From Thalassovita mediterranea (GTDB lineage: Bacteria; Pseudomonadota; Alphaproteobacteria; Caulobacterales; Hyphomonadaceae), in NCBI GenBank assembly GCA_019448215.1, contig CP080408.1:2046001-2110000 (forward strand): DNA of 64,000 nt. Reading direction: 5' to 3'. This document shows positions 3,622-19,702 of this stretch, piece by piece. Positions within the stretch are counted from its first letter, which is position 1. Every line of letters starts with the position of its first letter. Under the pieces are notes generated by a model that was not told the origin of the DNA, searched no databases, and saw only the letters and a program-made list of their open reading frames with translations. Position numbers and translations under genes: made by a program.

Positions 3622-4230
3622 TTGGAGTTGGGTGGTTTGGTTGAGAAAATAGAAGCGTCCTTCGTCGCTCGACTCGAAGCTCTCATTCCAGAGCTTAGAG
3701 CGTTCGCAAGGGGGCTGAGCCGCGATGCCGCGCTCGCTGACGATCTTGTACAGGATACCTGCCTGAAGGCCTGGAGCTCGCAGGAAATGTTTGAGCCGGA
3801 CCAGCCCATGCGTCCTTGGCTATTCCGTATCCTGCGAAACGAATTCTACATGCAGAAGCGCCGCTCATGGCGTTCGGTCAATCTGGAGCCGGATGTGATC
3901 GCAGCGACGCTGGTCGCTGAAGCCCAGCAAGAAACGGCCAAGGATTTTGCGCGGATGGAGCGGCTGATCAGCCAGCTGCCAGACGACCAGCGCGATGCGC
4001 TTATCCTTATCCTGGCGGCGGGCATGACCTATGATGAGGCGGGCGAAGTCTGCGGCTGCTCTGCAGGCACGATCAAGAGCCGCGTCAGCCGCGCACGTGA
4101 GACTGTGAAACGGCGTTTCGTGTCGAGCGAGCGCTCCTCCTACACCGTCAAACGCCCCGAAGGGCAGGGGCTGCCTGCACTGCTTCACCGGCTCGACGAA
4201 TTGGCAGGGCCAGCCCGGCACCCGCTTTGA
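3622..4230 (+). CDS. ecfG: EcfG-family RNA polymerase sigma factor (general stress)
   Basis: About 202 residues. Region 2 is at residues ~18-85 (LRAFARGLSRDAALADDLVQ, then WLFRILRNEFY) and region 4 at ~115-165 (LPDDQRDALILILAAGMTYD, then CGCSAGTIKSRVSRAR), a standard ECF sigma factor. Position beside nepR identifies it as the EcfG type, which directs RNA polymerase to stress promoters. The start is uncertain: TTG at 3622, 3628 or 3637 are all in frame, and GGAG at 3624-3627 is well spaced for the TTG at 3637. The C-terminus extends about 35 residues beyond region 4. Its stop lies 2 bases before the PPTase ATG, implying co-expression. Confidence 0.88.
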   Translation: MELGGLVEKIEASFVARLEALIPELRAFARGLSRDAALADDLVQDTCLKAWSSQEMFEPDQPMRPWLFRILRNEFYMQKRRSWRSVNLEPDVIAATLVAEAQQETAKDFARMERLISQLPDDQRDALILILAAGMTYDEAGEVCGCSAGTIKSRVSRARETVKRRFVSSERSSYTVKRPEGQGLPALLHRLDELAGPARHPL

Positions 4231-4232
4231 CG

Positions 4233-4892
4233 ATGCGCGGCGGCTCTATAGCTGCTGGCCCGGTCTGGGCGATTTCCGACAGGCGGGATGTTCAGCATGG
4301 CTTCGAGCCTGCTGACGAGGCCGAGAAAACCCGCACATCCAGGCTCAGACGTAGCGACGACGCTGCTGACTTTCTGCATGGCAGATGGCTGATGCGGCAG
4401 CTTATTAAGCAGCGACGGCCACATGCTGGAACGCCCGTTCTTCAGAGTTATAACGACGCCCGCCCGGAGATCATTGGCGCGCCTGAGCTAGCTATAAGCT
4501 GGTCGAAGTCTGGGCCCGTCGCGGCGGCGGCGCTGATTGAGAACGCCGTGGTTGGTATCGATATCGAGCGCCTGATTCCGCGTGAGACAGGCGCGATCCT
4601 TTCCATGACCGCGAGCGATAGCGAGGCTGAGACGGTTGCCTCGGCAGGCAACGAAGCTGCGCGTCTCGTCGCCTTCTATCGTCTATGGACGGCCAAGGAA
4701 GCGGTCCTCAAATGCCGGGGAGAGGGGCTACGCGGTGGCGCGAAGAGCGTTGAAATACTGTCGGATTTCATTCTCGGGCGCGTGGATGAAACCGACATCG
4801 AAGATCGCGGCTTGTCGCTGAAGCTGTCAGTGATCGACGCCGGCCCTGGCGCGGTCTGTACGGCCGCGTTCAGCGCGCAAAAATCGATTTGA
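4233..4892 (+). CDS. Sfp/PfaE-type 4'-phosphopantetheinyl transferase
   Basis: A 219-residue protein from the ATG at 4233 (an in-frame TTG at 4227 overlaps the ecfG stop). It carries the PPTase signatures 'VVGIDIERL' (Mg2+-binding Asp and Glu) and 'FYRLWTAKEAVLKCRGEGL' (W-x-x-KEA). The enzyme moves the phosphopantetheine arm of CoA to carrier-protein serines. The obvious clients are the two ACP domains of the neighbouring PfaA, making this the functional equivalent of PfaE. Its 3' end overlaps the last 23 bases of the convergent acyltransferase gene that closes the lipid operon. Immediate coupling to a stress sigma factor is unusual. Confidence 0.88.
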   Translation: MRGGSIAAGPVWAISDRRDVQHGFEPADEAEKTRTSRLRRSDDAADFLHGRWLMRQLIKQRRPHAGTPVLQSYNDARPEIIGAPELAISWSKSGPVAAAALIENAVVGIDIERLIPRETGAILSMTASDSEAETVASAGNEAARLVAFYRLWTAKEAVLKCRGEGLRGGAKSVEILSDFILGRVDETDIEDRGLSLKLSVIDAGPGAVCTAAFSAQKSI

Positions 4893-5460
4893 ACATCCAG
4901 CCTGCGAGGGACCTGCCGCTCGTGTGACGCTCATCCTGCATGTCAAAAACCATAAGCGAAACAGTGCCGAAGGGCGGCGCGTCGATGCCTTCCTTGCGGA
5001 TGTCAAAGCCCATCGAGCCATAAAACTCACGCATCTGTGCTTCGGCCAGAATGGCGATATAGCGGTGTTTGTTGCGGGCCACATAGTCGAGGACGGCGCG
5101 CATCACCGGGCCGAGCGTTTTGGAGCCGCGCCGCTCTGGCGCGGTGACGAGTTTCGATACAACGACGCAGCTTTCCCCTTCGGCGAGGACTGATCCAAGA
5201 TCAAAAACCTGAAATCTTTCAGATGCTTCGTTTGCATGCACAGGGATGACCTGCGTGCTGGAGACAAGGTTGGCCCCATCAAATAGAGCGAACGTCTCGC
5301 CCAGCAGATCCGCCTCATCGCGAAGCAGCCGGCTTTCATGATCGGCGCCTTTCATGGCGAACTGTTTCTCGGCGCAATAGACGCGGTAGCGCAGGTGCTG
5401 GACCAAGGGCAGGGTGGCATCGGTGACGGGGATAATCTCAAAATTATCCATGGGGGTCAT
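4870..5460 (-). CDS. GNAT-fold acyltransferase resembling autoinducer-synthase / FeeM-like enzymes, end of lipid operon
   Basis: A 196-residue protein (ATG 5460; a second ATG at 5451 is also possible). The N-terminal 'LRYRVYCAEKQF' is typical of the acyl-homoserine-lactone-synthase / N-acyl amino acid synthase / PEP-CTERM-associated acyltransferase branch of the GNAT fold. It is followed by a GNAT core 'SKLVTAPERRGSKTLGPVM' and 'EAQMREFYGSMGFD'. Relatives commonly take acyl groups from acyl-ACP rather than from acetyl-CoA. Its start overlaps the end of the megasynthase gene (8 or 17 bases), so it is translated with the synthase. Inference: it transfers or offloads the synthase product onto an unknown acceptor. 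It could instead be an ordinary small-molecule N-acetyltransferase. Confidence 0.7.
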   Translation of the reverse strand: MTPMDNFEIIPVTDATLPLVQHLRYRVYCAEKQFAMKGADHESRLLRDEADLLGETFALFDGANLVSSTQVIPVHANEASERFQVFDLGSVLAEGESCVVVSKLVTAPERRGSKTLGPVMRAVLDYVARNKHRYIAILAEAQMREFYGSMGFDIRKEGIDAPPFGTVSLMVFDMQDERHTSGRSLAGWMFKSIFAR

Positions 5461-8400
5461 CTCCCACAGACCAGGCGCGCGCTGCGGTATCGAAGCGCAG
5501 ATCGTAACGGCTGCGGGCGTTCGGGCCGATGACGAATGGCGGGTCCAGCGTCAGCTTTTGCGGATGAATGCCCCATTTGCGGGCGAAGAATTCCTTCACG
5601 GCGACGCCCTTGATGAGATCAGCCCCCGTCAGCCCCTCCAGCCCCCAAGCGGCGGCGACCGTGCCGGGCAGCCAGTCGCAAGCCATGACATCGGCGGGCG
5701 CCACAAGGCTGCGATCGCCTTCCTGCCAGCTAAGCGGTGCGACCACCTCGTCATTGGTGCCTGTCAGAAAAACCTTTCTGGCCAATGGGTTGAGCGCGCC
5801 GAGCTTGCCTTTCGGATAAGCCTTCTCGATGAGGTCCAGCCTCGCCCAGAGCGTGCCGTCTTCGAGATAGGCCTCAATCAGGACGGGCAGATCATCAGAG
5901 CCTTCAGGCCGGGGTTGCGGGCGGCCTCTGACGGTCAGCTTACCGTTTTCCGGAAGCGGGCCGAGCACAGTGAAGCGGTCGATGCGGACCGGGTAGATGG
6001 CGGTGTTTTCCGCACCCTCGAACCATTCTTCAGGCGTTTCGTGCGGCGGGCCATGGACGAGGCCATCCAGTATGACCGGGTCGAACGGGTCCCCGGGATT
6101 GATGGCGGCGGCGAGGTCCAGAACAGCTTCGAAACCTTTTGCGTCACGGCGCATCGAGACCACAGGCTGCATGGCAGGCCCATGGAAAAGGTCGCCGGAT
6201 GAATAAGGATCAGCCCGCTTCTTTCCATGCTTTTCGGGCCCAAGTTTCGGCTTCGGGCCGCGAACCGGCTGGCTGATCTTTCCGGCGGAAATTTCGTACC
6301 ATGGCGCGTCGCCAGAGACGGCATCGCGGCCGCGCAATCTCGCGTTCCCGTCTGGTGTTACCCTCGTCTCTACGCTCAGGCCATCACCGCTGAGGCTTCC
6401 CCAGCGCTTTGGAGAAAACGCTTTCAGTTCAATTGGATAGCCTTCAAAGCCTGCCGCTCTCGCCTGCTGCAGGGCCATGCCGGCTTGGGCCAGAAGGGGG
6501 AGAGAGGGGAGGGTATGGGTTGGACGATGCGACTGTAGCCAGCCCTCGTTTCCAGCAGAAAACACGGTGCAGTGGCGGTGCAGTGACGGTGTATGGGCGG
6601 TGCATATCCGGACACTCAGTTCGCGCATCTCATAGATCTTCAGCCCATCGACCCAGAGCACGCCGCGCCCGTCCACGATGGTTGCGTCATCGCCCTCTTC
6701 GACGGCCAGAATCTCGACCATCGGGGTCGCCTGTTTCGCCGTTGGCATGACTTGGCCGCGATAGGTCCAGTTCACGTCATTGGTTTCGGCAATCGGCTCC
6801 CAGACAGGATGCTCAAACCGGTCCGCGAAACCTTTGAGGTCGGCGGCGCGGGCGAGAAGCTGAACCAGCATATCGAGGCCGAGTGAGCCGGGTTGGACCG
6901 GGTCAGAGAAGAAGTGCGCCTTGAAGTACCAGGCATAAGGATCGACGGCCTGCCGCGCCCGGATCTGGCCGAGACCGGCGCTGCCGCCTTCTGGCTCGAA
7001 CCGGTCGATGACGTCGAACAGCGCCAATCGGTTACGGGAGGCCAGCAGGCGGGTGCCGTCCTCGCTCGGTGGGTCGGCTGGCGCGTTGACGAAGTCGCGG
7101 TCGGCGTCTGTTGGCTTGAGGCCGGCCTGCGCGGCGAGCGAGGCTTTGGTGAAGAAGCCAAAGCTCGTCTCCAGCGTGATGATGGGGGTGCCGTCGGCGA
7201 GCGTGGCTTCGAGCGCGAAAAAGACGATGGTCATCGGCCCCACGCGCGAACAACGGGTCAGCGTGGTCGTCGTGCGGACCATGCCGTCGCCGGGGCGGAC
7301 CTGGCGATGCAGCTTGCCGCTGCCATCGAGATTACGGAAGCGCGTTTCACCGGACAGGGCAAAGCCTGAATAGGAGGCGAGCCAGCCGCAGGGCTGAAGG
7401 ATGACTTCGGTCAGCACGCTGAAAGGCATCGTGCCCGTGCCGCCATCCTCGAAATACCATGCGTCTTTCGGGACATCGTATTCGGCGACAGCTTTCAGGC
7501 CAGCCGACTGCTGGCTAGCAGGGCCGGAGACAGAGAGGACACGGCTGACCATGTGATAGGGCGGCTGTGGGAGGCGCGGGACGGCGCCTTTGGTGTCGAA
7601 GGGCGCATACATGCTGCCAAACGCGTTGCTCGGCGCGCCAGAGCCACATTCCATGAGGGCCGCTTCGTCACCGCGCACGTCGCAATCAGCGTTCACATAA
7701 TGCGGCTGGGCGGCGGCTTTTGGCTGGTCTGGCCACTGGCGGCGAAGGCGGATGCCAAAGCGCGGACAGTAGAAGACCTTTCGGCCATCAGAGCGGGCAA
7801 GCAGGCTGGCAAACACCACTGGTTCTTCGCCGTCGATCACCTCATCGACGAAGACCTCATAGGTGACATCGTGGTCCGCATCGGGCGTGACCTGACCCCG
7901 GCAGTAGAAGGTCGCAGGCGCGCCCGGTGCCGGTTCAAAGACATGGCTGTCACGCTCAATGGTCAGGCCAAGCCCGGCGGCGGTGAATTCGAGCGCCTGG
8001 ACCGCCGCTTCGGCCATGAGCGTGCCGGGCATGCATGGGTCTTCATGGAAATGGCCGTCATAGAACCAGGCGTCTTTGGCGACGCGGTGGCGAGCTTTGA
8101 GATAACCGCGCCCCCATGGGCCGCCGGTAGGATCGAACTCGGGTACGTCATCGAATAGCGACAGCTTGCCCGCTGGCAGGCGGGCAGGTCGTGTGTGCGG
8201 AGCCGCGCGCTCAAACCCTTCGCCAAAACAGCGATACGTGTCGCCAGCGCGGAAGGCAGCGACGTCGGCGGCGCTGAAACTGCGTTTGCTGGTCGGCGAT
8301 GTCTTGTCGAGGCGCGGGTCTGCGGTCGGCGCGCCTTCGCTGGCATCCCAGAGCACGCCTTTGGAGTTGGCGAGTTCCTCATCGGTGAAGAAGCCTGCCT

Positions 8401-11400
8401 GACCATTGCGGACAGACAGGAGCAGCCGCTCATCGGCGTAGCAGTCATATTCGAAGAAGAACATGCGCACGCCGGACAGCTCCGCATGGCCCTTGATGGA
8501 GATCTGGAAGCGCAGTGTCTCTCCCACACGCGGCAGGCCGCCTTCGTGGAAGGTGAGCTCGCAGCCGAGCAGGCGGTAGACGCGGTCCGAGCAGTTCAGC
8601 ATGTCCGCGCCCATCCATGAGATGAGCGCAAGGTCTGCCTGCCCCGCCTCAATCAGGGGGCCGGGGCGCAGCATGCCATCACTGACTGCCCAGAGGTCGG
8701 CGGCCACATCGGTTTCGGTCCAGATGGTGCCTTTGCCCTGAACGAGAGCCTCTGCGTCGATGCCGGTGATCCGGTCACAGAGCAGCATGGGCGGGCGCGG
8801 CATACGCACCTGACGGCGGTATTTGTCCTGCGCGGCGAAAGCCTCGCCGAAGACTTCGGAGATATTGCCGACGGCGGCCTCTTCGATCTGGGCCCGGGTG
8901 AAGGATGGGCCTGTGGGCGACCGACGCTCAAGCGGTGTGACGGATTTACGGGCCTCTGCCGGCGCGGGCGAAATGCGCTTGGCCGGGGCCGGTTTTGGTG
9001 CGGAGGTCATCGCGGCTGCAGGCGTCGCGGCCGGTGTAGGACGCCTCCGCTCAAGAACGGCGGTGCCCACTGTCTTCACAACGGGCGGGACCCAGCTTGC
9101 GCCGGGCGGCAGGGGTAGCGTGCGCGCACGCGCTGGTTTTGCAGCTGGAAGCGGGCCGGGCTTGAAGGATGGCCGTTTGGGTGGAGTGAGGCGGCGGCGA
9201 GCGGTCTGCCGAGCGCCATATGGAAGCTGTGGCAGGCGCGGCGGCTCGACATGTGCATTGAAGGTAACGGCGCTCTTGTCCTTCACTCGCAAAGGCAGCG
9301 TGTTGGCGGAGGCCTCACCCAACTGTGCCTTCAGCCAGTCGACATTGAGGGTGTGCCCTTCGGCAAAGAGGCGTGCGGTGAGGGCCGCGATACTGTCGAG
9401 GGCGGGCGTGCCGAACCGGTCTGTTGGCAGCGCCGTGATAGAAGCGCCCAGCGTTTCCTGAATGGCGCCTGTGAGCGTGTCGCGGGGGCCGATCTCGATG
9501 AAGGTCTGCACGCCGTCGGCATGCGCGGCGCGGAGCGTCGCCGGAAAATCGATTGGCGCGATGGCCTGCCCGGTCAGCATATTGGCGGCGCTATCGGCGG
9601 AGACTTCGTAAGCGCCGTTTATGGCGTTGGCGTAGAAGCGCACGCCCGCCGGTGCCTTCGTCTTTCTGAAGTGAAGCTGATGCCAGGTCTTCTCATAGGG
9701 CAGCATGGCCGGGGTGTGCACGGTGAGATCGTGCGGCACGCGGATCGCCGCCGCGCCGAGCCGCCTTATGACGCGCTGGCAGGCGGATGCCTCACCGGAA
9801 ATGACGACATCGCTGGCGCTATAGATGATGGTGATGTCGCAGCGCGGCTCTGGCTTGATGGCATCACGGACAGCGGCCTCGCTGGTGCGCAGGCGCCATG
9901 TCGCCCATTCGATCTGGGCCTTCTCGCCCCAGGCCTTGCGGGCGGTTTCAAACGCGCCTGCGAGGTAGCGGTCATACATGCCGCTTTCGCCAATCGTGCC
10001 CATCAGCCCGTCAGCGTCCACCCATGCGCCAAAGGCGATGAGCGAATTGGTCTCGCCGGAGGAAAGCCCCATGGCGACGGTCGGGCTGAGGCCAAGTTTC
10101 TTCGTCAGGAGGAGATGCTGGGCCTGCGAGATGAGCGTCGTGGCGCGCAGCTGGCTGAAGGCGCTTTCAAGGCCAGTGGCGAGCGTGTCCGCCACAGATT
10201 GAGCGGCCGGAAAACGCTGGGTGACGAGCTTGCCAAGGGACGGGAAGGCCGAAAATAGATCGCGTCCCATGCCGGGATAGGCAGCTGCAGCTCCGGTGAA
10301 GACAAAGGCGAGATCGCCCTTCGGCGTGCCCTCACCGAAATGGATGCCGTCGCCGCTTTCAAGCCTGCCTGAACGAAGGCGCGAGGCCGCTTCGAGGCGG
10401 AGTGCCGTCATCTCCTCAGGCCGGGAGGCGAGCAGCGCGACCCGGTGGCTGCCTTCGCTTGCCTGTTCCTGAGCTTCGAGACAGGTGATGAGCGCGTCGT
10501 GGCTGTCTGCCCCATAGGTTTCGAGCCGCGGCGGCGGGCGCAGCAGGTCTGGCGAGGGGTGCGGGCGCGTCTTCAGTTTGACGGCGGCCCCTGCGACGGC
10601 GGGGTGAGTGGCGGAGCTGTCGAGGCGCGGCACGAGACCCGTATCGGCAAGCTCCAGCCCGTGTGCGGCGGCTTCGGCCTGCAGGCCAAGTTCGACGACG
10701 CTGCCCGCCGCATGGGCGTGGCCATAGATGCGGGAGATGAGGGCGTTTGGCGCCTGGCCCGCTTCAATGCGGAGCGTGCGGATTTCTGTTGCCGACGTCG
10801 CATCGGCGCTGCGCTGCAGGATAAGGGCGGCGGCGGCGTCACCTGTGCGCGCACTGCCCGTGGCGGCGTGAACCACATCGCTGGAAAGATCGGCGGCGGC
10901 GACGATGGCGGCGTCGATCTCGCCCGCCTGAAGCGCGCGGATGGCAAGCTCTACGGCGCGAAGGCCGGAGGCTTCCTCCTCCATCACGGCGAAACCGAGC
11001 GCGCGCCAGTCGCCGCGCACATTCAGCCGGTTTGCCGAGACGTTCGGCATGGCGCCGAGGACGTCGCCAGCTTTCAGCGGCGCGGCAATGGCGTTGCGGG
11101 CAGCGTCCGCCTCTGGCGATGTCGGGCTGAGGCCAAAACGCTCCGCAATCCGTGCACGGAGCATCCAGCGGGTCGCTTCGGGGGCGCAGCTGAAACCGGT
11201 GTAGACGCCGACACGCGCGCCCTCCGGGAGGGACGTGCGGGCAAGCGCTTCGTCGACGGCGTCCCATAGCGCGACCTGCTGGCCCTGCGCGGAAGACAGG
11301 TCCGATGGCGGCGCGCGAAGGGCTTTCGGGTTGGCATGGGTTTCCGTCATCGGACCGCGTGCATCCTTTGGCGGACGCATCAGGCGTTGAAGCACACGCG

Positions 11401-12763
11401 CGGCGCCGCGATCCGGGCCAAGGGAAAGGCCGGTGGCGGTGACGGCGATATGGGGCGGCTTCTGATCGGGCTTCGCGGCCTTTCGGCGGGCGCGATGACC
11501 GTCATCGGCGGCGAGGATCAGATGGGCATTGTTGCCGCCAAAACCGAAATTGGAGAGGGCAGCGATGCGCGGGCGGTCGTCTGGCCACTTGCCTTGCCGG
11601 GCGGGGGTAAGGCCGCCTGCGTCAAAGCCCGCGATGGCGTCGCCTTCAAGACGGGTTGGCGGGATAATGCCTTGATTGACGGCATAAGTGAGCTTGATGA
11701 GGCTCGCCATGCCCGCTGCGGTGATGAGGTGGCCAAGATTGCCCTTGAGCGACCCGATGGGCAGGCCGTCCACGCCTCCGAAATGGGCGGCGGTCGCGGC
11801 CAGTTCGACGGCGTCGCCCGTGCGTGTGCCGGTGGCGTGCGCTTCGACGAGGCCAATGTCGCGTGACGGGTCGAGGCCTGCGCCCGCCCATGCGGCGGCC
11901 ATGGCTTCGCGCTGGCCATCGCCATCTGGCGCGAGCAGGGATTTGCGGCGGCCATCATTGGAAAGACCGATGCCGCGAATGACGCCGAAGACGCGGTCGG
12001 CAAGGTCACAGTCTGACAGGCGTTTGAGGACGATGGCGGCGGCGCCTTCTGCCGGGACGAGGCCGTCTGCACCGTCCACGAAGGGCCGCGAGCGGCCTGT
12101 CGGCGAGAGCGCGTTGAGGGCGGAAAAGCCCTGATGGAGGATGAGATTGTCTGCACCGTTCACGGCCGCGGCGACGACGATATCGAGGCTGTGGTCCTGA
12201 AGGCGGTCGCAGGCGAGCTTGATGGCATAGAGCGAAGAAGCGCAGGCGGCATCGATGGCGAAGGCTGGGCCTGCCGCGCCAAGCGAGCGGGCAAGAAGCT
12301 GCGCCGGGCCGCCTGTGTTGAAGCGGTTCTGCGGGTCTATGTCTGAGGTGCCGTCCAGCCAGATGTCTGCGGCATAGTCAGAGAGGGCGCGGCTCGGATA
12401 GCCGAGATTGCCGGCGATGACGCCGATCCGGTTCTTGCGCGCCTTGGGCTGTCCGGCTTCGCGCCAGGCTTCGCGGCCAGCATGCAGCAGCCACTGAAAG
12501 ACAGGGTCGAGGTCTGCGGCATCAATGCCATCCAGATCATGGGCGGCAGGGTCAAAGACCTTGTCGAAGCCGCTGACGAAGGCGCCTTTGTAGCCCATCG
12601 CTTCCTGCTCGGCGTCGGTGACGCCCCATTTGCCGGGCGGGGCGTCGGTGATGAGGGACTTTTCCTCAAGCACGGCCTTCCAGAGCTCAGCAGGCGACAA
12701 CGCGCCGGGGAGGACGCAGCCACGTCCGACAATGGCGATCGGGTCGAATTTCGCCTCAGACAT
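5444..12763 (-). CDS. pfaC: Pfa-type lipid synthase, KS-CLF-AT-DH-DH-DH' megasynthase (PfaB+PfaC-like fusion)
   Basis: A 2439-residue protein from the ATG at 12763 (MSEAKFDPIAIVG); an upstream in-frame start adds 22 residues lying inside the KR gene. Domains: KS at ~5-435 with DAACASS and Cys174; chain-length factor at ~445-750, whose active-site region reads VMEEEASG (no Cys); acyltransferase at ~800-1120 with GLSSGE (Ser901); a Pro/Ala linker at ~1150-1290. Four FabA-type hot-dog units follow at ~1310-2040. Units two (GHFHEDPCMPG, His1571) and four (AHFFSDPVQPG, His1950) are complete, while units one and three lack the His, so there are two working dehydratases. A PKS-type double hot dog lies at ~2075-2320 (HTLPSLPLLAQ; VILDGLVHG). 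The last ~80 residues are unassigned. AT fused behind KS-CLF resembles myxobacterial and thraustochytrid enzymes rather than the separate PfaB of Shewanella. Confidence 0.9.
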   Translation of the reverse strand: MSEAKFDPIAIVGRGCVLPGALSPAELWKAVLEEKSLITDAPPGKWGVTDAEQEAMGYKGAFVSGFDKVFDPAAHDLDGIDAADLDPVFQWLLHAGREAWREAGQPKARKNRIGVIAGNLGYPSRALSDYAADIWLDGTSDIDPQNRFNTGGPAQLLARSLGAAGPAFAIDAACASSLYAIKLACDRLQDHSLDIVVAAAVNGADNLILHQGFSALNALSPTGRSRPFVDGADGLVPAEGAAAIVLKRLSDCDLADRVFGVIRGIGLSNDGRRKSLLAPDGDGQREAMAAAWAGAGLDPSRDIGLVEAHATGTRTGDAVELAATAAHFGGVDGLPIGSLKGNLGHLITAAGMASLIKLTYAVNQGIIPPTRLEGDAIAGFDAGGLTPARQGKWPDDRPRIAALSNFGFGGNNAHLILAADDGHRARRKAAKPDQKPPHIAVTATGLSLGPDRGAARVLQRLMRPPKDARGPMTETHANPKALRAPPSDLSSAQGQQVALWDAVDEALARTSLPEGARVGVYTGFSCAPEATRWMLRARIAERFGLSPTSPEADAARNAIAAPLKAGDVLGAMPNVSANRLNVRGDWRALGFAVMEEEASGLRAVELAIRALQAGEIDAAIVAAADLSSDVVHAATGSARTGDAAAALILQRSADATSATEIRTLRIEAGQAPNALISRIYGHAHAAGSVVELGLQAEAAAHGLELADTGLVPRLDSSATHPAVAGAAVKLKTRPHPSPDLLRPPPRLETYGADSHDALITCLEAQEQASEGSHRVALLASRPEEMTALRLEAASRLRSGRLESGDGIHFGEGTPKGDLAFVFTGAAAAYPGMGRDLFSAFPSLGKLVTQRFPAAQSVADTLATGLESAFSQLRATTLISQAQHLLLTKKLGLSPTVAMGLSSGETNSLIAFGAWVDADGLMGTIGESGMYDRYLAGAFETARKAWGEKAQIEWATWRLRTSEAAVRDAIKPEPRCDITIIYSASDVVISGEASACQRVIRRLGAAAIRVPHDLTVHTPAMLPYEKTWHQLHFRKTKAPAGVRFYANAINGAYEVSADSAANMLTGQAIAPIDFPATLRAAHADGVQTFIEIGPRDTLTGAIQETLGASITALPTDRFGTPALDSIAALTARLFAEGHTLNVDWLKAQLGEASANTLPLRVKDKSAVTFNAHVEPPRLPQLPYGARQTARRRLTPPKRPSFKPGPLPAAKPARARTLPLPPGASWVPPVVKTVGTAVLERRRPTPAATPAAAMTSAPKPAPAKRISPAPAEARKSVTPLERRSPTGPSFTRAQIEEAAVGNISEVFGEAFAAQDKYRRQVRMPRPPMLLCDRITGIDAEALVQGKGTIWTETDVAADLWAVSDGMLRPGPLIEAGQADLALISWMGADMLNCSDRVYRLLGCELTFHEGGLPRVGETLRFQISIKGHAELSGVRMFFFEYDCYADERLLLSVRNGQAGFFTDEELANSKGVLWDASEGAPTADPRLDKTSPTSKRSFSAADVAAFRAGDTYRCFGEGFERAAPHTRPARLPAGKLSLFDDVPEFDPTGGPWGRGYLKARHRVAKDAWFYDGHFHEDPCMPGTLMAEAAVQALEFTAAGLGLTIERDSHVFEPAPGAPATFYCRGQVTPDADHDVTYEVFVDEVIDGEEPVVFASLLARSDGRKVFYCPRFGIRLRRQWPDQPKAAAQPHYVNADCDVRGDEAALMECGSGAPSNAFGSMYAPFDTKGAVPRLPQPPYHMVSRVLSVSGPASQQSAGLKAVAEYDVPKDAWYFEDGGTGTMPFSVLTEVILQPCGWLASYSGFALSGETRFRNLDGSGKLHRQVRPGDGMVRTTTTLTRCSRVGPMTIVFFALEATLADGTPIITLETSFGFFTKASLAAQAGLKPTDADRDFVNAPADPPSEDGTRLLASRNRLALFDVIDRFEPEGGSAGLGQIRARQAVDPYAWYFKAHFFSDPVQPGSLGLDMLVQLLARAADLKGFADRFEHPVWEPIAETNDVNWTYRGQVMPTAKQATPMVEILAVEEGDDATIVDGRGVLWVDGLKIYEMRELSVRICTAHTPSLHRHCTVFSAGNEGWLQSHRPTHTLPSLPLLAQAGMALQQARAAGFEGYPIELKAFSPKRWGSLSGDGLSVETRVTPDGNARLRGRDAVSGDAPWYEISAGKISQPVRGPKPKLGPEKHGKKRADPYSSGDLFHGPAMQPVVSMRRDAKGFEAVLDLAAAINPGDPFDPVILDGLVHGPPHETPEEWFEGAENTAIYPVRIDRFTVLGPLPENGKLTVRGRPQPRPEGSDDLPVLIEAYLEDGTLWARLDLIEKAYPKGKLGALNPLARKVFLTGTNDEVVAPLSWQEGDRSLVAPADVMACDWLPGTVAAAWGLEGLTGADLIKGVAVKEFFARKWGIHPQKLTLDPPFVIGPNARSRYDLRFDTAARAWSVGDDPHG

Positions 12764-14165
12764 GCGCGATCTCCGCACCGGCAACGAGTTCAACCGGGCA
12801 GGCGGCGCCCGCGAGAACCGCGTCAGCAAAAGCGTTGGCCCCGGCGGCCTTGGAGATCAGCGGGACGCCAAGTTCTGCGAATTTTGCGCGCAGGCCGTCA
12901 TCCACCATGCCGCCATCCCATGGGCCCCAGTTTATGGAGGTGATGGCGGCGGCCGGGTTGGTCGATTTCAGCCACCAGGCCATGCGGTTCAGGATTTCGT
13001 TCGCCATGGCGTAGTCGACCTGGCCTGCATTGCCATAGCGGGCGGCGACCGATGAGAAGAAGACAACGGTTTCTAGCTGGCTCGTGTCGAGCTGCGAGAT
13101 GAGGGCTTCGAGGCCGCCAATCTTGGGACCGAAGACGCGAGCGATCTGTTCGGGCGTCTTCTCGCGGATCAGCTTGTCGGCAAGGACACCTGCGCCATGC
13201 ACGAGACCTGTAATCTCACCCAGCTGGCTGCGGATATTGGCGAGGGCAGCGCCAAGGGCGGTGGGGTCGGAAACGTCTGCAGGGATGTAGTGCGCCTCAC
13301 CACCAGCGCGGGCGATTGCGTCCAGCGTTTCGCGGATTTGAGCGCCAGACAGGAGGGCGCGAGCGCGGCTGTTCAGGGCGGCGGGCGTGATCTTTTCGCC
13401 AGCGTCCTTGGCCGCCTTGGCGAGGGCGCCGCGCAGCGCCTTTTCATCTGTGGTGACAGGAAGGCCTGCGGGCCATGGCGTAATTTCTGAGCGGCCAAGC
13501 AGCGCGAAGCGCGCGCCTGTGCGCCGGGCGAGCTCAATCACGCAATCAGCTGTGACGCCGCGTGCGCCCCCGGTGACGAGGATGACGTCCTGAGCGCCCA
13601 GCCGTCCGGGCTGGTTGCGAGGCAGGGTGAAGTCTGTGTCCTGTGGCACGTATCGACCGGCAGGGCTGAGGCCTGCGGTGGGCGCGGTGCCGCCCGTGAG
13701 CAGTTCTTCGGCGAGATGGCTGGCCGCGAGGGCTGTGCCGAAGCCAGCCACGTCGATATCGATAAGGCGGATTGTGGCGGCAGCGAATTCCCGTGCGGCG
13801 GTGCGGGCAAGCCCAGAAAGCCCGCCGCGCCATGCCCGATGGTCGTGCGGCTGGAAGCTCCCGCCTGTGTCCTGAAGCAGGATAACGGTGCCGCCCTGGG
13901 ACTCGAGTTGCGAGGCGTTGATTTTCAGCGCTGCGACGGCGTCTGCGTGCAAAGTCTCTCGCGAGCTGGCGAGGCCGTGGGCGAGGAGGAGGGCGCTGGC
14001 TGTCCCGCTGGGGCTGGTGACGGCGTTGACCCTGAAGCCCGATGCGTTGAGCGCGGCGACGAAAGGCTGCGCGGCCACAAGGTCCGGGGTCACCCACTCA
14101 ATCAGCGACGCTTCGCGCAGGCCCGGTGTCACCCGCCCGATGGCGGATTGGCTGACATAGGCCAC
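12756..14165 (-). CDS. Ketoreductase domain of PfaA, in the -1 frame after the ACP domains
   Basis: About 469 residues if read from a GTG at 14165. An N-terminal structural subdomain (~1-190) precedes an NADPH-binding SDR core: 'VILVTGGARGVTADCVIEL', then 'VVFFSSVAARYGNAGQVDYA' with the Ser and Tyr of the catalytic triad, then 'MANEILNRM'. It reduces beta-ketoacyl-ACP. The frame is open upstream across the end of pfaA: its hypothetical extension is an Ala/Pro-rich linker typical of multidomain synthases. There is no ATG in the first ~390 residues and no good ribosome site before the GTG. It is therefore better seen as the C-terminus of PfaA reached by a -1 frameshift (product ~1803 residues) than as a separate gene. 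Its stop overlaps the start of the megasynthase by 8 bases. Confidence 0.85.
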   Translation of the reverse strand: MAYVSQSAIGRVTPGLREASLIEWVTPDLVAAQPFVAALNASGFRVNAVTSPSGTASALLLAHGLASSRETLHADAVAALKINASQLESQGGTVILLQDTGGSFQPHDHRAWRGGLSGLARTAAREFAAATIRLIDIDVAGFGTALAASHLAEELLTGGTAPTAGLSPAGRYVPQDTDFTLPRNQPGRLGAQDVILVTGGARGVTADCVIELARRTGARFALLGRSEITPWPAGLPVTTDEKALRGALAKAAKDAGEKITPAALNSRARALLSGAQIRETLDAIARAGGEAHYIPADVSDPTALGAALANIRSQLGEITGLVHGAGVLADKLIREKTPEQIARVFGPKIGGLEALISQLDTSQLETVVFFSSVAARYGNAGQVDYAMANEILNRMAWWLKSTNPAAAITSINWGPWDGGMVDDGLRAKFAELGVPLISKAAGANAFADAVLAGAACPVELVAGAEIAHV

Positions 14166-14221
14166 AGCCTTGAGCGGCAGGGATGGAAGCGTTGCGGCTT
14201 CCTGCCCGGGAGCTGGCGAAG

Positions 14222-14270
14222 CGGGGCGGGCAGCGTCAGGCGACGCCGGCGCGCCCCCTAGCCAAAAAAA
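14222..14270 (-). promoter_or_regulatory. Candidate -1 ribosomal frameshift signal joining pfaA to its KR domain
   Basis: On the coding strand, seven T (14270-14264) sit in phase as T TTT TTT, the X XXY YYZ slippery form. The spacer GGCTAG (14263-14258) includes the pfaA stop codon. A stem-loop begins next: an outer stem GGGGCG (14257-14252) with CGCCCC (14228-14223), and an inner 7-bp stem 14248-14242 / 14237-14231 (one G-U) with a GCCT loop. The 6-nt spacer is in the range used by known -1 sites. After slipping, translation passes through TGG CTA into the KR frame without a stop. An eighth T in the true sequence would instead fuse the genes. Confidence 0.55.
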
Positions 14271-17200
14271 TCGGCGATCTTCCGGATGGAGCGCAGCTCT
14301 GCGATCTGTTCCGGTTCGACCTCTGGCAGGTTCGGCATCTGCTCACGCAGGGCAGAGAGGATCTCGACCTGCTTGATGGAGTCGACGCCAAGCTCGCCCT
14401 CAAGGTCCATATCGTCCTCAAGCATTTCAGGGGGATAGCCCGTCTTGTCAGCGATGAGATTGCGGACAAGTTCGGTCATGTTGACGCCCGCCCGGCCTGC
14501 TGCGGGTGGCGCTGCCGGGGCAGGCGCTGGCGCGGCGACGTGGTGACCGTTGCCATTCGCATAGCCATTGCCATTGGCGTGAACGGTCGGGGCCGCTGGA
14601 GCAGGCGCGGCGCTGGCCGATGGGCTGAGGAAGGCTGCGATCTTTGCGATCGTGCGAAGCTCTGCGATCTGTTCAGGTTCGATTTCCGGCAGGCTCGGCA
14701 TCTTTTCGCGCAGGGCAGAGAGGATCTCGACCTGTTTGATGGAGTCGACGCCGAGCTCCCCCTCAAGGTCCATATCGGGTTCGAGCATGTCGGACGGGTA
14801 GCCGGTCTTTTCAGCGACCAGGCTGGTTACGAGCGCGGTGAAATCCTGAGCCACTGGCGCGGCAGGGGCTGGCGCTGGAGCGGGAGCAGGCGCTGCCATT
14901 ACCGGTGCAGGTGAAGGTGCCGGCGCAGCCGGGGCGCGGGCTGGCGCAGGTTGAGGTGCAGGCGGTGCTGCGACTGGTGCTGGCGCGGGCGGGGCCACAG
15001 GCTGAGGCGCTGGCGCGGCCTGCGGTTGCGGCGCGGCGGCAGGGACGGCGCTGGCTGAGGCGAGCATCGCCTGCGTTGCCTGCATATACTGGGCATGCGC
15101 CGCCTGAAGTGTCTGCATGTAGGCATTGTGCGCCTCCGTCATCTGCGCGTGGATCTGCGCGGCGGTGGAGGCGGGAGCGGTCTGGCGGGGCTCAGTCATG
15201 GGCGAAGGTCCTGGCTGGGGTGACTTTACAGAAGAAGGTGTTGGCGGCGTTGGCTTTGAAGCAATCGGGTCTGGAGGGGCTGATAAGGTATCGACAGTCC
15301 TGGGCCGGACCTTCTCTGCATTTGGCGGCGGGAGGGCCGCTGCGCCGCCTTTGGGCGGATACGGCTTGTTGTAGTTGGCGCCGGTAAGATCGATCGCGTG
15401 CTTGGAGCGGGGTTTGCGCGGTTCGGATGCTGGCATGTTGGCAAAGAGTGCTTCGAGGTCGACTTCATGGCCGAGCACAGCCAGCTTGCCGATGCCAGCG
15501 AGGAAGGCGGCGAGGCCGCTGCCCTTCTTGTCATCGAGCGCGACGGCGGTCGCCTTGCCGGGAAGAATCTGGCCGACAAGCGCGGTCAGCACCGTGCCGG
15601 GGCCAGCCTCAACAAAGGTGGTGACGCCGGCCTCATGCATCGCCTCAATGATCTCACGGAAGCGCACAGGGCTCTCGATCTGTCCGGCGAGGAGGTCGCG
15701 CTGCTTGTCATAGGCAAGCGGGTAGCGTTTGGCCGAGGCATTGGCGAAGACCGGGAATTCAGCCTTGGCAAAGTCCGTCTTGCCGAGCGCCTTGCGGAAC
15801 GGGGCAACGGCCCCTGCGACGATGGGCGAGTGGAAAGCCGAGGCGACCGGCAGTCGGCGCGCCTTGATGCCTGCTGCTTCAATCGCGAGACGGGCCGTTT
15901 CGATGGCGTCGACTGGGCCGGAAAGCACAGTCTGGGTCGGCGCATTGTCATTGGCGATGACGACGTCCGGGTGGTTCTTGAGAATTGGCGCTAGTTGCTC
16001 GCTTGATGCCTGCGTCGCCAGCATGGCGCCTTCATTGTCGGCGGCGGCCTTGCTCATCAGCTTGGCGCGTTTGACGGCGGTCGAGAGGGCGTCCTTGTCA
16101 GAGAGCACGCCGGCGGCATTGAGCGCCATGATCTCACCAAAGCTGTGACCCGCAGCCATGTCGGCGTTTAGGCCGGACTTCTCCAGCACAGCGAGAACCG
16201 CCAGCGACGCGGCTGCGAGCGCGGGCTGTGCGTTCTCCATCGCGGTCAGCGTATCTGCCTGCGCCTTGGCGTCCGCGTCATTGAAGGCAGATGGTGGAAA
16301 GGCAAGCCGGTGGAGGCCGAGCTTGCCCGCTTTCTTGTGGCTTGCCGCAAAGTCCCATGCGGCGCGCGCCTCAGGGAAAGCGAGCGCGAGCTCACGGCCC
16401 ATGCCGACATACTGGCTGCCCTGACCGGGCATGAGATAGGCGAGTTTTCCGGGCGCAGCCTTGCTGAGGCTGATGCTGGCGCCTTTCGGCAGGGGCGCAG
16501 TTTCGGCTGTGCCTGCGCGAATGAGCGAGGCAAGCTTTGCGGCCTTGGTCGCGAAGTCCTTATTGTCGCTGGCCGTAATGGCCGCGCGGCAGACCGCGTC
16601 AGCGGCAAATGAGGCGTGGCTGTCGCTGGCCGCGATGGCGAGGTCTTCCTCATGCACCAGCTTCGAAGCGATGGCCTCGATAGACTTGGCGAGGTTGTCC
16701 GGCGTATCGGCCGAAACCATGACCAGCTCGGCTGGCAAAATGCGGTCGGGGTGAGGGGCGAGCTTGCCGGTATATTCTTCCAGCGTGACGTGGAAGTTTG
16801 AGCCGCCGAAGCCGAAGGAGCTGACAGAGGCGCGGCGGGCATGCGATTTGTCCCTGATCCAGGGGCGCAGCTCGCGGTTTACATAGAAAGGTGACCCAGC
16901 GAGCGCAGGTGCGGGCTGGTCGACTTTCAGCGTCGGCGGCAGCGCCTTGCGCGAAAGCGCCATGACGGTCTTGATGAGGCTGGCTGAGCCTGCAGCTGAC
17001 TTGGTGTGGCCGATCTGCGATTTCACAGAGCCAATGGCGCACCACGGATCGGAGACGCTTTCGCCTTCCTCGCAGAAGACGAGCTTGAGGCCGGAGATTT
17101 CGGCGGCGTCGCCAGCCTTCGTGCCGGTGCCGTGTGCTTCGACCAGTTCGACGGAGCGCGGGTCATAGCCCGCCTGTTCATAGGCGCGCTCAAGCGCGCG

Positions 17201-18166
17201 GGCCTGCCCATCAGGCAGCGGCGCATAGATCGCCGTGGCGCGGCCATCAGAACCTGCGCCAATACCTTTGATGACAGCGTGGATACGGTTGCCATCCCGT
17301 TCAGCATCGGCGAGGCGGCGGAGCGCCAGTATGCCGATCCCTTCGCCAAGCATGGTGCCGTCGGCCTTGTCGGAGAAGGGACGGCAATCGCCCGTCGGCG
17401 ACAGGGCCGGCGTCTTGGAGAAGCACATATACATGAGGATGTCGTTCAGCGCGTCGACACCGCCCGTCAGGACAAGGTCGCTGTCGCCAGCGCGAAGCTC
17501 ATGAATGGCGCCGTGCAGCGCGGAGAGGGATGAGGCGCAGGCCGCATCGGTCACATAATTCGAGCCGCCAAGGTCCATCCGGTTGGCGATCCGCCCGGCA
17601 ACGACATTGCCGAGAAGGCCGGGGAAGGTGCTTTCCTTCCATTCGGAGAAATTCTCTGAAATCCTGTCGGCGATTGCCTGCACCTGCGTTTCTGGCAGGC
17701 CGGCCTCGCGCAGGCCCTTTACCCATGAGGGGCGCTGAAGGCGGCCTGACATATGGCCGACGAGTTCGGTCGCGGATGCAACGCCGAGGATGCAAGAGGT
17801 ACGCTTACGGTCGATCGTGCCATTGGTCGCCTTCTCAGCCTCATCCAGTGCGGTCTGGGCGACCATGAGGGCGAGCAGCTGGGCGCTGTCAGTCGCGTCG
17901 ATCTGGTTCGGCGGGATTCCAAAGGAGAGCGGGTCGAAGCCCTTCGGCGAGAGAAAGCCGCCGCGCTCGCCATAGGTCTTGTCGCGGGCGCGCGGGTTGG
18001 CATCGTAATAGTCCTCGATCAGCCAATGGGTCGGTGGGACCGGCCCCAGCGTATCGACGCCTTCTGCGATATCACGCCAGAAGCCCGGCGTGTCCCCGCG
18101 GCCCGGGAACATGGCGCCATAGCCCACGATTGCGATGTCTGCTGGTCCTGACGTTCTGTCTGCCAT
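14258..18166 (-). CDS. pfaA: PfaA-like lipid synthase, KS-MAT-ACP-ACP
   Basis: A 1302-residue protein. The beta-ketoacyl synthase is at ~8-450 (VTDAACASSLSALH, Cys210; EAHGTGTKAGDA). The malonyl/acyl transferase is at ~570-880 (LMPGQGSQYVGMG; GHSFGE, Ser675). A Pro/Ala-rich linker covers ~935-1090, and two near-identical carrier domains have LGVDSIKQVE with phosphopantetheine serines 1142 and 1263. It starts chain building and carries the intermediates. Typical PfaA proteins have three to nine ACPs and end in a KR; here there are only two, and the zero frame stops right after ACP2 (IADFFG). The KR follows in the -1 frame behind a slippery run (separate entries). It sits 27 bases after pfaD, in one operon. 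Confidence 0.93.
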   Translation of the reverse strand: MADRTSGPADIAIVGYGAMFPGRGDTPGFWRDIAEGVDTLGPVPPTHWLIEDYYDANPRARDKTYGERGGFLSPKGFDPLSFGIPPNQIDATDSAQLLALMVAQTALDEAEKATNGTIDRKRTSCILGVASATELVGHMSGRLQRPSWVKGLREAGLPETQVQAIADRISENFSEWKESTFPGLLGNVVAGRIANRMDLGGSNYVTDAACASSLSALHGAIHELRAGDSDLVLTGGVDALNDILMYMCFSKTPALSPTGDCRPFSDKADGTMLGEGIGILALRRLADAERDGNRIHAVIKGIGAGSDGRATAIYAPLPDGQARALERAYEQAGYDPRSVELVEAHGTGTKAGDAAEISGLKLVFCEEGESVSDPWCAIGSVKSQIGHTKSAAGSASLIKTVMALSRKALPPTLKVDQPAPALAGSPFYVNRELRPWIRDKSHARRASVSSFGFGGSNFHVTLEEYTGKLAPHPDRILPAELVMVSADTPDNLAKSIEAIASKLVHEEDLAIAASDSHASFAADAVCRAAITASDNKDFATKAAKLASLIRAGTAETAPLPKGASISLSKAAPGKLAYLMPGQGSQYVGMGRELALAFPEARAAWDFAASHKKAGKLGLHRLAFPPSAFNDADAKAQADTLTAMENAQPALAAASLAVLAVLEKSGLNADMAAGHSFGEIMALNAAGVLSDKDALSTAVKRAKLMSKAAADNEGAMLATQASSEQLAPILKNHPDVVIANDNAPTQTVLSGPVDAIETARLAIEAAGIKARRLPVASAFHSPIVAGAVAPFRKALGKTDFAKAEFPVFANASAKRYPLAYDKQRDLLAGQIESPVRFREIIEAMHEAGVTTFVEAGPGTVLTALVGQILPGKATAVALDDKKGSGLAAFLAGIGKLAVLGHEVDLEALFANMPASEPRKPRSKHAIDLTGANYNKPYPPKGGAAALPPPNAEKVRPRTVDTLSAPPDPIASKPTPPTPSSVKSPQPGPSPMTEPRQTAPASTAAQIHAQMTEAHNAYMQTLQAAHAQYMQATQAMLASASAVPAAAPQPQAAPAPQPVAPPAPAPVAAPPAPQPAPARAPAAPAPSPAPVMAAPAPAPAPAPAAPVAQDFTALVTSLVAEKTGYPSDMLEPDMDLEGELGVDSIKQVEILSALREKMPSLPEIEPEQIAELRTIAKIAAFLSPSASAAPAPAAPTVHANGNGYANGNGHHVAAPAPAPAAPPAAGRAGVNMTELVRNLIADKTGYPPEMLEDDMDLEGELGVDSIKQVEILSALREQMPNLPEVEPEQIAELRSIRKIADFFG
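14271..14460 (-). repeat. Second copy of tandem ACP repeat
   Basis: The DNA of the second ACP domain closely matches that of the first (14636-14820), including a long shared stretch around the phosphopantetheine serine. The near identity suggests recent duplication or gene conversion. The copy number could be miscounted in a short-read assembly. Confidence 0.75.
14636..14820 (-). repeat. First copy of tandem ACP repeat
   Basis: Partner of the repeat at 14271-14460. Both encode the same ACP core with DSIKQVEILSALRE. The two copies are separated by an Ala/Pro-rich linker of about 60 residues. Confidence 0.75.
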
Positions 18167-18193
18167 TTTGTGTCTCAGCCCCTCAGCCAGAGA

Positions 18194-19702
18194 TTACTCG
18201 AAAAGCCCCGCCCTGTAGTCGAAAGCAGATTGTGGAATGTTCTCTCCGCACGCGCGCCGCGCCTGGAGCCTTGTGAGATGCGCGGCCCCGTCGAGCAGGT
18301 TGAGCGCAATCTGTTTCACGGTGCGCGTCTCGAGCGCTTCAAGGGGGCTTCCCTTTACCCATTCATTGAAGGCGCCCATCGCCGGGCCGCACCAGATCTG
18401 ATAGTCGCGCAGCCGGCTCTCATCGCCCTCGCGCGCCCATTGCGCGCCGAAGAACAGATAGCGCCGGAAGACGAGCGCCAGCTGGTGGTGCGGGTCGGCT
18501 TCGGCCTTTGCGAGCTCTTTGGGATTGGTGCCGCTCATATAGGCGCGGGTCTTCTCCCAAGCGGTGGCATAGGGCTCACCGAGCGCAGTTTCGATGAAGG
18601 CCTGCTCCTGCGCCGTACAGTCGGCAAAGCTGGCGCGTGTCTTGTGAATCTCGCGCATCCGCTTGCCGCGCATGGCGAACAGCGTCCCGCGCTTGAGAAC
18701 CTGCACCTCTACACCCTGTTCGAACATGTCGGCGGCGGGAGCCATGGCGATATCTGCCGGGCCTGCTTCGGCGAGCAGTTTGCGCCCGGCGAGAGAGAGA
18801 CCGGATTCCACGGCAGCCTGATTGACCGAGCCGGTGATGATGTAGGCTGCGCCCATCTGGAAAGCGGCGGCGGCGGCCCAGGGCGTGCCGATACCGCCGC
18901 CAAGGCCGATGCGGATATCGTCGGCGTTGAGGCCATGCTCTTCGCAGACCTGGCGGCGCGCCTGAACCAGCGAGGAAAAAAGCGGACCAGCGGCGCGGTT
19001 ATCAGTATGCCCGCCGCTATCGGCTTCAGCAGTGATGTCGAGCGCGACCGGAACGGTGGCGGCGATCTCTGCCTGCTCGGGTGTGATGTCCCCCCGGGAG
19101 ACAAGCTGTTTCAGAATGGCATCGGGGGCAGGGGCCATGAACTGGCGCGCAACTTCGGCGCGCGAGACCTTGGCGAAGACGTGCGTGCTACGCTTGATGC
19201 TGCCATCGGCGGCGCGTGACAGGCCTGCTGCACTGTAGCGGACGATCTCAGGCGATAGCTGCATGAAGGCAGAGGCCGAGACGCGGGCCACACCGCGCGA
19301 AAGGAAGAGGTCGACGACGGCGCGTTCATAGCCCGGCTGCTGCGGCGTATGGATGAGGTTGGCACCCCAGGCGGGCGCGCCTTTGCCGAGGGCAGCCTCG
19401 ATCTCATCAAGACCTGCGGCAATCGTTTCCGGCTTGAGGCCCGCGCTGCCGTAAAAGCCGACAAGCCCGGCCTGCACCGCGGCAATGACCATGCGCGGGG
19501 TCGCAATGCCGCGCGCCATTTCGCCGACGATATAGGCAAAGCGGCTGCCATGCGTCTTGGTAAAGGCATGATCGCCCAGCCAGTCTGCGTAGACCGCTGC
19601 AGCGTCGTTCTGATCGTCTTGTTTGGTTAAGGGGGGCTGTCGCGTCTCAACCTTCATGGCCGGGCCGCTATGTTGACTAGGTTCCCAATGCTGAATCCGC
19701 AT
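18194..19702 (-). CDS. pfaD: PfaD-like enoyl reductase (nitropropane-dioxygenase fold)
   Basis: Up to 502 residues from the ATG at 19702; an ATG at 19658 (MKVETRQPP) is an alternative, and neither has a strong ribosome site. It is an FMN TIM-barrel of the PfaD family: 'GLVGFYGSAGLKPETI' near residue 80, 'ALDITAEADSGGHTDNRA' near 225 and 'IGLGGGIGTPWAAAAAFQMG' near 260, followed by the long C-terminal part that distinguishes PfaD from simple nitronate monooxygenases. It is the trans-acting enoyl reductase of the lipid synthase. First gene of the reverse-strand operon, 27 bases before pfaA. A palindrome lies about 135 bases upstream. Confidence 0.92.
   Translation of the reverse strand: MRIQHWEPSQHSGPAMKVETRQPPLTKQDDQNDAAAVYADWLGDHAFTKTHGSRFAYIVGEMARGIATPRMVIAAVQAGLVGFYGSAGLKPETIAAGLDEIEAALGKGAPAWGANLIHTPQQPGYERAVVDLFLSRGVARVSASAFMQLSPEIVRYSAAGLSRAADGSIKRSTHVFAKVSRAEVARQFMAPAPDAILKQLVSRGDITPEQAEIAATVPVALDITAEADSGGHTDNRAAGPLFSSLVQARRQVCEEHGLNADDIRIGLGGGIGTPWAAAAAFQMGAAYIITGSVNQAAVESGLSLAGRKLLAEAGPADIAMAPAADMFEQGVEVQVLKRGTLFAMRGKRMREIHKTRASFADCTAQEQAFIETALGEPYATAWEKTRAYMSGTNPKELAKAEADPHHQLALVFRRYLFFGAQWAREGDESRLRDYQIWCGPAMGAFNEWVKGSPLEALETRTVKQIALNLLDGAAHLTRLQARRACGENIPQSAFDYRAGLFE

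Follow-up and report, generated by a model that had tools for sequence, protein, structure and literature searches.

Results

The pfaA gene in the window, i.e., in the 64,000-nucleotide stretch of Thalassovita mediterranea DNA analyzed here, ends in a junction that very probably directs programmed -1 ribosomal frameshifting, by which both a KS-AT-ACP-ACP protein and a KS-AT-ACP-ACP-KR protein would be produced. Most likely, the enzyme is made in two forms, without and with its ketone-reducing domain. The earlier note on this DNA had proposed such a frameshift, and family-wide conservation, covariation in the RNA stem and selection on the -1 frame now support it.

The source genome is a single contig of 3.2 Mb. 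On the minus strand of the window the genes follow each other in the order pfaD, pfaA, ketoreductase (KR, in the -1 frame) and pfaC, as in an operon for a Pfa-type lipid synthase (Table 1). Within the 0-frame part of pfaA, Pfam detected a ketoacyl synthase, an acyltransferase and two PP-binding stretches. The profile TIGR02813 (omega_3_PfaA) scored 989.7 bits on this part (best stretch, profile positions 8-949) and 285.5 bits on the KR part alone (profile positions 1845-2267); both are scores of parts taken separately and not of the joined protein, and the first falls just under the whole-protein cut-off of 1010.1 bits. Because the two parts match successive regions of the profile, they look like two pieces of one PfaA. 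Scores below threshold in the pfaC-type gene were 31.2 bits for the acyltransferase (cut-off 32.7) and 61.7 bits for pfaB_fam (cut-off 144.3). An ORF beside pfaC (4227-4892, plus strand) resembles by eye a 4'-phosphopantetheinyl transferase, which we take to be a possible pfaE. Another ORF (4870-5460, minus strand) resembles a GNAT-type acyltransferase, again judged by eye; it lies on the same strand as pfaC, and its start overlaps the pfaC end.

Table 1. Features of the pfa operon and of the pfaA junction in the window.
Feature	Position	Strand	Basis
pfaD (enoyl reductase), directly upstream of pfaA	18194..19702	-	TIGR02814 pfaD_fam, 543.7 bits (cut-off 449.25)
pfaA 0-frame ORF: KS-AT-ACP-ACP, 1302 aa, C-terminus IADFFG-stop	14258..18166	-	ORF list, Pfam, NCBIfam
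Slippery heptamer T TTT TTT (X XXY YYZ, in phase)	14264..14270	-	7 T
Sense codon GGC between heptamer and stop	14261-14263	-	
0-frame stop TAG, one sense codon past the heptamer	14258..14260	-	
3' stem-loop, putative stimulator: lower stem GGGGCG/CGCCCC plus upper stem, starting 6 nt past the heptamer	14223..14257	-	Folds, covariation
-1 frame extension: Ala/Pro linker, region ahead of the catalytic domain, ketoreductase domain; 502 aa post-slip	12756..14270	-	Pfam KR, TIGR02813
Overlap ATGTCTGA: pfaC start 12763-12761, KR stop 12758-12756	12756..12763	-	
pfaC-type gene: two ketoacyl-synthase stretches, FabA-like dehydratase stretches, weak acyltransferase/PfaB-like match	5444..12763	-	Pfam, NCBIfam

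On the minus strand the 3' end of pfaA reads ATC GCC GAT TTT TTT GGC TAG, followed by GGGGCGCGCCGGCGTCGCC. This agrees with the seven in-phase T, the GGC codon and the TAG stop described in the earlier note. Its placement of KR was likewise confirmed on the ORFs: the KR ORF lies exactly in the -1 frame of pfaA and is open across the junction, through the T run and on to its stop at 12756. The predicted transframe product thus has a length of 1301 + 502 = 1803 aa. A further claim, that there is no ATG for about 390 residues, was right as to the lack of ATG and has to be corrected in its extent, since the first ATG is residue 422 counted from the slip codons. A GTG is found in the -1 frame at 14165, 33 codons past the slip; it would therefore be incorrect to say that the frame has no start.

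We compared the junction with that of related genomes, as the earlier note had suggested. The KR protein was searched in 105 Hyphomonadaceae genomes, 57 of which matched at E 1e-30; 55 of these 57 loci were readable, i.e., had the ACP end on the same stretch, and two were cut at contig ends. All 55 readable loci, which are related by descent and hence not independent, carry T TTT TT[T/C], one sense codon, a stop and then GGG, and in 54 of them KR lies in the -1 frame. Neither an eighth T nor an in-frame pfaA devoid of run and stem, either of which the earlier note had held to speak against frameshifting, was seen among them. The one exception to the -1 frame is a Hyphomonas locus (genome G047, L044:4207-4285), in which a 32-nt deletion takes the 3' arm of the stem and KR is in frame with pfaA, albeit behind the stop; this locus may be decaying or misassembled.

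The last base of the heptamer alternates between T and C, with six Ts followed by C at 17 of the 55 sites and seven T at the others. In every locus the stop is found one codon past the heptamer, as TGA (21), TAG (19) or TAA (15), and the sense codon before it varies as well. Since both codons change and the site of the stop is fixed, it is the stop position that is held. A similar constraint is seen on the T that precedes the Phe codons, which stays T even in the one locus with Asn and the one with Gly in place of Asp. Two columns, Asp (-4) and the first Phe (-3), have third-position T in 55/55 loci; its frequency is 35-41% at four further conserved Asp positions of this ACP, 73% at a Tyr column and 69% at the second Phe. 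When 398 genomes of the order (family included) were scanned for the signature pattern, 53 matched, all of them in three genera of the family and each with exactly the pfaA junction; G066 and G069, two further genomes of the 55, did not appear in the scanned sample. A reversed control pattern gave no matches in the 398 genomes.

Folding confirmed the two-part stem-loop 6 nt past the heptamer that the earlier note had described. The structure begins at the first base past the stop with a lower stem, six to seven pairs long, which is followed by an upper stem. For the window alone, the 83-nt fold is only modestly better than shuffled sequences (z -1.68, 7 of 200 shuffles as good). Over 48 distinct 45-nt junction stretches (G047 included) the mean folding z was -2.42, as compared with -0.18 for 228 control windows from the same loci. 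We analyzed covariation in 48 distinct junctions, i.e., 46 from the family (without G047 and identical copies) and two from Granulosicoccaceae. Ten of the 14 stem pairs show two-sided changes, and the covariation score of 0.281 exceeds the shuffled mean of 0.178 (sd 0.013), being reached by 0/500 shuffles; slid versions of the stem scored at most 0.174. The six outer pairs of the lower stem each form in 46-48 of the 48 sequences, and RNAalifold, unaided, recovered the six lower pairs together with two upper pairs. The upper stem differs from clade to clade, and when all sequences are put into a single register, several of its pairs can form in only about half of them. Of five measures, one did not exceed shuffles, namely the count of further pair types (28 versus 26.2 in shuffles, with 28 reached by 115/500 of these). 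Rfam gave no match at gathering score in the window at 12500-18500, so no known RNA family was identified there. We propose that the stem is a putative stimulator, located 6 nt 3' of the heptamer and hence within the 5-8 nt typical of -1 frameshift signals.

Purifying selection acts on the -1 frame, starting at the junction itself. In 14 close pairs of loci, dN/dS was 0-0.48 for linker codons 1-45 post-slip and at most 0.32 for the rest of the frame, with one value undefined; these Nei-Gojobori estimates are rough on such short stretches. Linker dS was below KR-region dS in all 13 pairs for which both were computed, as is expected if the RNA fold is also held. No conserved start codon was found in the -1 frame of the 54 family loci and two Granulosicoccaceae loci. 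In many loci a GTG, TTG or ATG occurs between codons 16 and 33 of this frame, at positions that are not conserved. In five of the 54 family loci the first start lies within 15 codons, including G063, where an ATG overlaps the stop. Six of the 56 loci lack any ATG, GTG or TTG in the first 60 codons, and an SD-like core ahead of a start in this stretch is present in four of 56.

At the other end of the KR frame, an ATG overlaps the KR stop in 49 of 52 examinable family loci (in the forms ATGNNTRR, ATGA or TRATG). We took this ATG as the putative pfaC start. In the remaining three family loci the ATG is absent or just past the KR stop, and in both Granulosicoccaceae loci the next ATG is just past the KR stop, without overlap.

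Beyond the family, two of 48 Granulosicoccaceae genomes searched matched, both with T TTT TTC GGC TAG and an analogous stem; the two loci are 62% identical to each other in the junction region. We calculated a KR tree of 108 rows, i.e., 16 of the 57 Hyphomonadaceae, the two Granulosicoccaceae, seven other -1 loci and 83 labelled in frame, a label that was assumed for five rows with no ACP in the stretch (L067, L069, L081, L118 and L137). Rows L205 and L210 are the same place, and loci repeating Hyphomonadaceae were omitted. Granulosicoccaceae group with the 16 Hyphomonadaceae rows and lie among them (SH-aLRT 87), which suggests one origin of the junction and one transfer between classes, with moderate support; the tree was made by a quick method with SH-aLRT only, and several of its inner forks are open. 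The nearest neighbours of this group are in-frame PfaA of other Pseudomonadota. In the same tree, the KR of locus L016 (G017), from a genome placed in the genus of the window, groups with Hyphomonas-type rows, and its heptamer is of the T6C form; this suggests a pfaA transfer within the family.

In most of the more distant relatives KR is in frame. Of the 80 best-matching loci among the matches listed, 74 had a readable ACP, with KR in the same ORF in 62, in -1 in 11 (five Hyphomonadaceae and six others) and in the exceptional G047 arrangement in one. The phylum and class samples yielded matches in 18/398 and 6/385 genomes, respectively, and 12/14 and 3/3 of the loci checked were in frame. The split hence looks derived and then held. 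A search of plasmids for KR matched 15 records; of the five examined, three were in frame, one (L221) was in -1 and for one (L223) no ACP was found.

Among all loci checked, KR was never found in +1, every other change of frame being to -1. Eight isolated -1 loci came from Paenibacillus qinlingensis, Streptomyces, a Pelagicoccus MAG, an Acidimicrobiales MAG, Actinomadura barringtoniae, G564, G605 and a Persicobacter psychrovividus plasmid. In seven of them an in-phase X XXY YYZ heptamer lies no more than 12 codons ahead of the stop. About 10% would be expected from in-frame linkers, 78 of which contain, over 7800 positions, 75 such heptamers in phase and 58 and 55 in the other phases; the p-value of about 8e-7 is too strong, since the 12-codon window was chosen after the heptamers had been seen by eye. 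In the eighth, Streptomyces L088, KR is in -1 and no heptamer was found. The heptamers differ between groups: A AAA AAC occurs in another Pseudomonadota family, Verrucomicrobiota and Bacillota, C CCA AAG in a further Pseudomonadota family, C CCU UUG and G GGA AAA in Actinomycetota and G GGA AAG in Bacteroidota, besides T TTT TTY in Hyphomonadaceae and Granulosicoccaceae.

The Pelagicoccus locus (L089:4800-4900) reads A AAA AAC TCC TAA followed by a GC stem, and in the Acidimicrobiales locus (L108:3200-3290) a strong stem, GGCTGGT...ACCAGCC, is predicted after C CCT TTG GCC TAA; KR is in -1 in both. On the Persicobacter psychrovividus plasmid (L221:5140-5300) a pfaA-like ACP/KR border shifts to -1 at G GGA AAG. 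Persicobacter sp. JZB09 (L222) is in frame, and the P. psychrovividus -1 reading aligns by eye with the JZB09 protein.

Relatives were checked for the isolated loci other than L088, L108 and L195. For Actinomadura, four of 65 genomes matched (itself included): two relatives are in frame, as is a second copy within the Actinomadura genome, and in one match no ACP was found. For G605 this was four of 74 (itself included), with two relatives in frame and one in which no ACP was found, and for Pelagicoccus five of 200 (itself included), with four relatives of the same family in frame. None of the other 29 Paenibacillus genomes matched at E 1e-60. Four isolated loci have A AAA AAC or G GGA AAA, heptamers that are described as inefficient in E. 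coli, though likely used by IS elements (PMC4066793). As the readable relatives are in frame, a missing base would also appear as -1 and two of the heptamer types are described as inefficient in E. coli, any one of these loci could by itself reflect a recent mutation or an error; the isolated loci are an unconfirmed lead.

Discussion

We conclude that the pfaA junction is real and conserved, and that it is best explained, on the grounds of comparative sequence analysis, by programmed -1 ribosomal frameshifting in an unexpected gene. Ribosomes on the pfaA mRNA would arrive at T TTT TTT, or at T TTT TTC, and the GC-rich two-part stem 6 nt downstream would make them pause. A share of them would slip back by one base and read on in the -1 frame through the Ala/Pro linker into the ketoreductase, producing KS-AT-ACP-ACP-KR of 1803 aa, and the remainder would stop one codon on and release KS-AT-ACP-ACP of 1302 aa. 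Heptamers of the type H_HH.U_UU.Y, which include both forms found here, rank with the most efficient ones in E. coli; the structures that stimulate slipping usually begin 5-8 nt downstream (PMC4066793). The slip may serve to fix the proportion of synthase subunits that carry KR relative to those that lack it. Since the KR stop would be reached by shifted ribosomes only and overlaps the pfaC start, PfaC translation may in addition be coupled to these ribosomes and so be tied to the long form. Any role for the KR-less subunit is a guess, made by analogy to other bacterial genes with two frameshift forms. Points that count against programmed frameshifting are the G047 exception, the modest fold in the window, the clade-specific upper stem and the Granulosicoccaceae loci in which the ATG overlap is lacking.

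A T missing from the assembled homopolymer, or a fresh frameshift mutation in what is really one ORF, would produce exactly the -1 offset, and an in-frame ACP-KR is indeed the commoner state outside the Hyphomonadaceae group. The same arrangement is found, however, in 54 of 55 related loci from separate assemblies, single-contig genomes among them, with stop position, heptamer and stem kept jointly and the KR frame under purifying selection. This comparison with relatives leads us to reject the artefact for Hyphomonadaceae, where it has a negligible chance of being correct. A homopolymer might alternatively induce RNA polymerase slippage, so that some mRNAs gain an extra U and are read normally. 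Slippage at runs of nine A or T is known in bacteria, depends on the organism and may occur on shorter runs (PMC1088944), and a nascent RNA stem has been recorded to aid it at a short run (PMC5009743); moreover, UUUUUUU is underrepresented in all frames of enterobacterial genes, with transcript slippage given as one possible reason (PMC4066793). Against it stand the shortness of the runs, which with seven T, or six T and then C, fall below about nine A/T, the fixation of the heptamer form in 55/55 loci and the position of the conserved stem 3' of the run, where it would be untranscribed while the polymerase is at the run. With only six Ts at the 17 family sites mentioned above and at both Granulosicoccaceae sites, we consider polymerase slippage very unlikely.

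Translation of KR as a separate protein, by re-initiation past the pfaA stop or from an internal start, has a precedent in the type D pfaA, described as split into pfaA1 and a KR-encoding pfaA2 (PMC3098273). The start codons 16-33 codons into the frame of many loci, the five loci with a start within 15 codons and above all the G063 ATG that overlaps the stop would fit. Start positions are not conserved, however, a start in the first 60 codons is lacking in 6/56 loci and only 4/56 have an SD-like core; furthermore, the linker codons are under purifying selection, and a separate KR would leave heptamer and stem unexplained. The probability of a separate KR is accordingly put very low indeed, in spite of G063. 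Frameshifting might also be real and the short product be devoid of a role, with the signal merely throttling the synthesis of KR and PfaC. This is compatible with programmed frameshifting, and polar control of downstream expression would fit the ATG overlap with the KR stop in most family loci. The short form nevertheless retains KS, AT and both ACP domains as judged from Pfam, and a weaker start would be a simpler way to lower expression; we regard a mere throttle as rather unlikely.

Programmed frameshifting in pfaA has parallels in known systems. In bacterial dnaX (tau/gamma), a -1 slip likewise makes two forms of a multi-part enzyme subunit, and dnaX candidates in fewer bacteria have the 0-frame stop directly past the shift site, as in the pfaA layout (PMC5009743). 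In E. coli dnaX, however, the shifted product is the short form, whereas in pfaA it would be the long one and add an enzymatic domain. Besides dnaX, PMC5009743 describes a case of 50% efficient frameshifting in carbon fixation. Transposases of the IS1 and IS3 families resemble pfaA in that the slip fuses two overlapping ORFs, and IS heptamers include U_UUU_UUC (PMC4066793); there the gene encodes a transposase, in contrast to the lipid-synthase operon found here.

The domain order of PfaA (TIGR02813), i.e., KS-AT-ACPn and then KR, with adjoining pfaD and pfaC, is the same as here, and the split type D pfaA, too, is divided between ACP and KR (PMC3098273). PMC13291983 describes a further split pfaA. 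Both are presented as separate genes, and the word 'frameshift' is absent from the main text of the two papers, whereas in the junction studied here a conserved slip signal would join the parts. We found no report of frameshifting in PfaA or another such synthase in the open-licence PMC literature, which does not cover subscription papers. In a survey of prokaryotic frame transitions (PMC3711429), the main text, supplements aside, does not contain 'ketoacyl', 'fatty acid' or 'Hyphomonas'. Tentatively, -1 frameshifting at the ACP/KR border of PfaA-like synthases might have arisen many times independently, with different heptamers, as a general means to set the ratio of KR-less to KR-bearing forms and to couple PfaC to the long form; we think this somewhat doubtful.

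Programmed frameshifting in pfaA would place a megasynthase among those cellular genes of bacteria in which -1 frameshifting is conserved. Annotating or cloning such genes as two CDSs or as a pseudogene would lose a real product, and earlier 'split pfaA' clusters merit re-inspection for the same signal. The giant iterative synthases of lipids and polyketides are usually regarded as protein chains of fixed composition. With a slip signal between carrier proteins and ketoreductase, translation itself may determine which domains the complex contains, and the signal would offer a direct, testable way into the question of what amount of KR, relative to ACP, is required by such a synthase.
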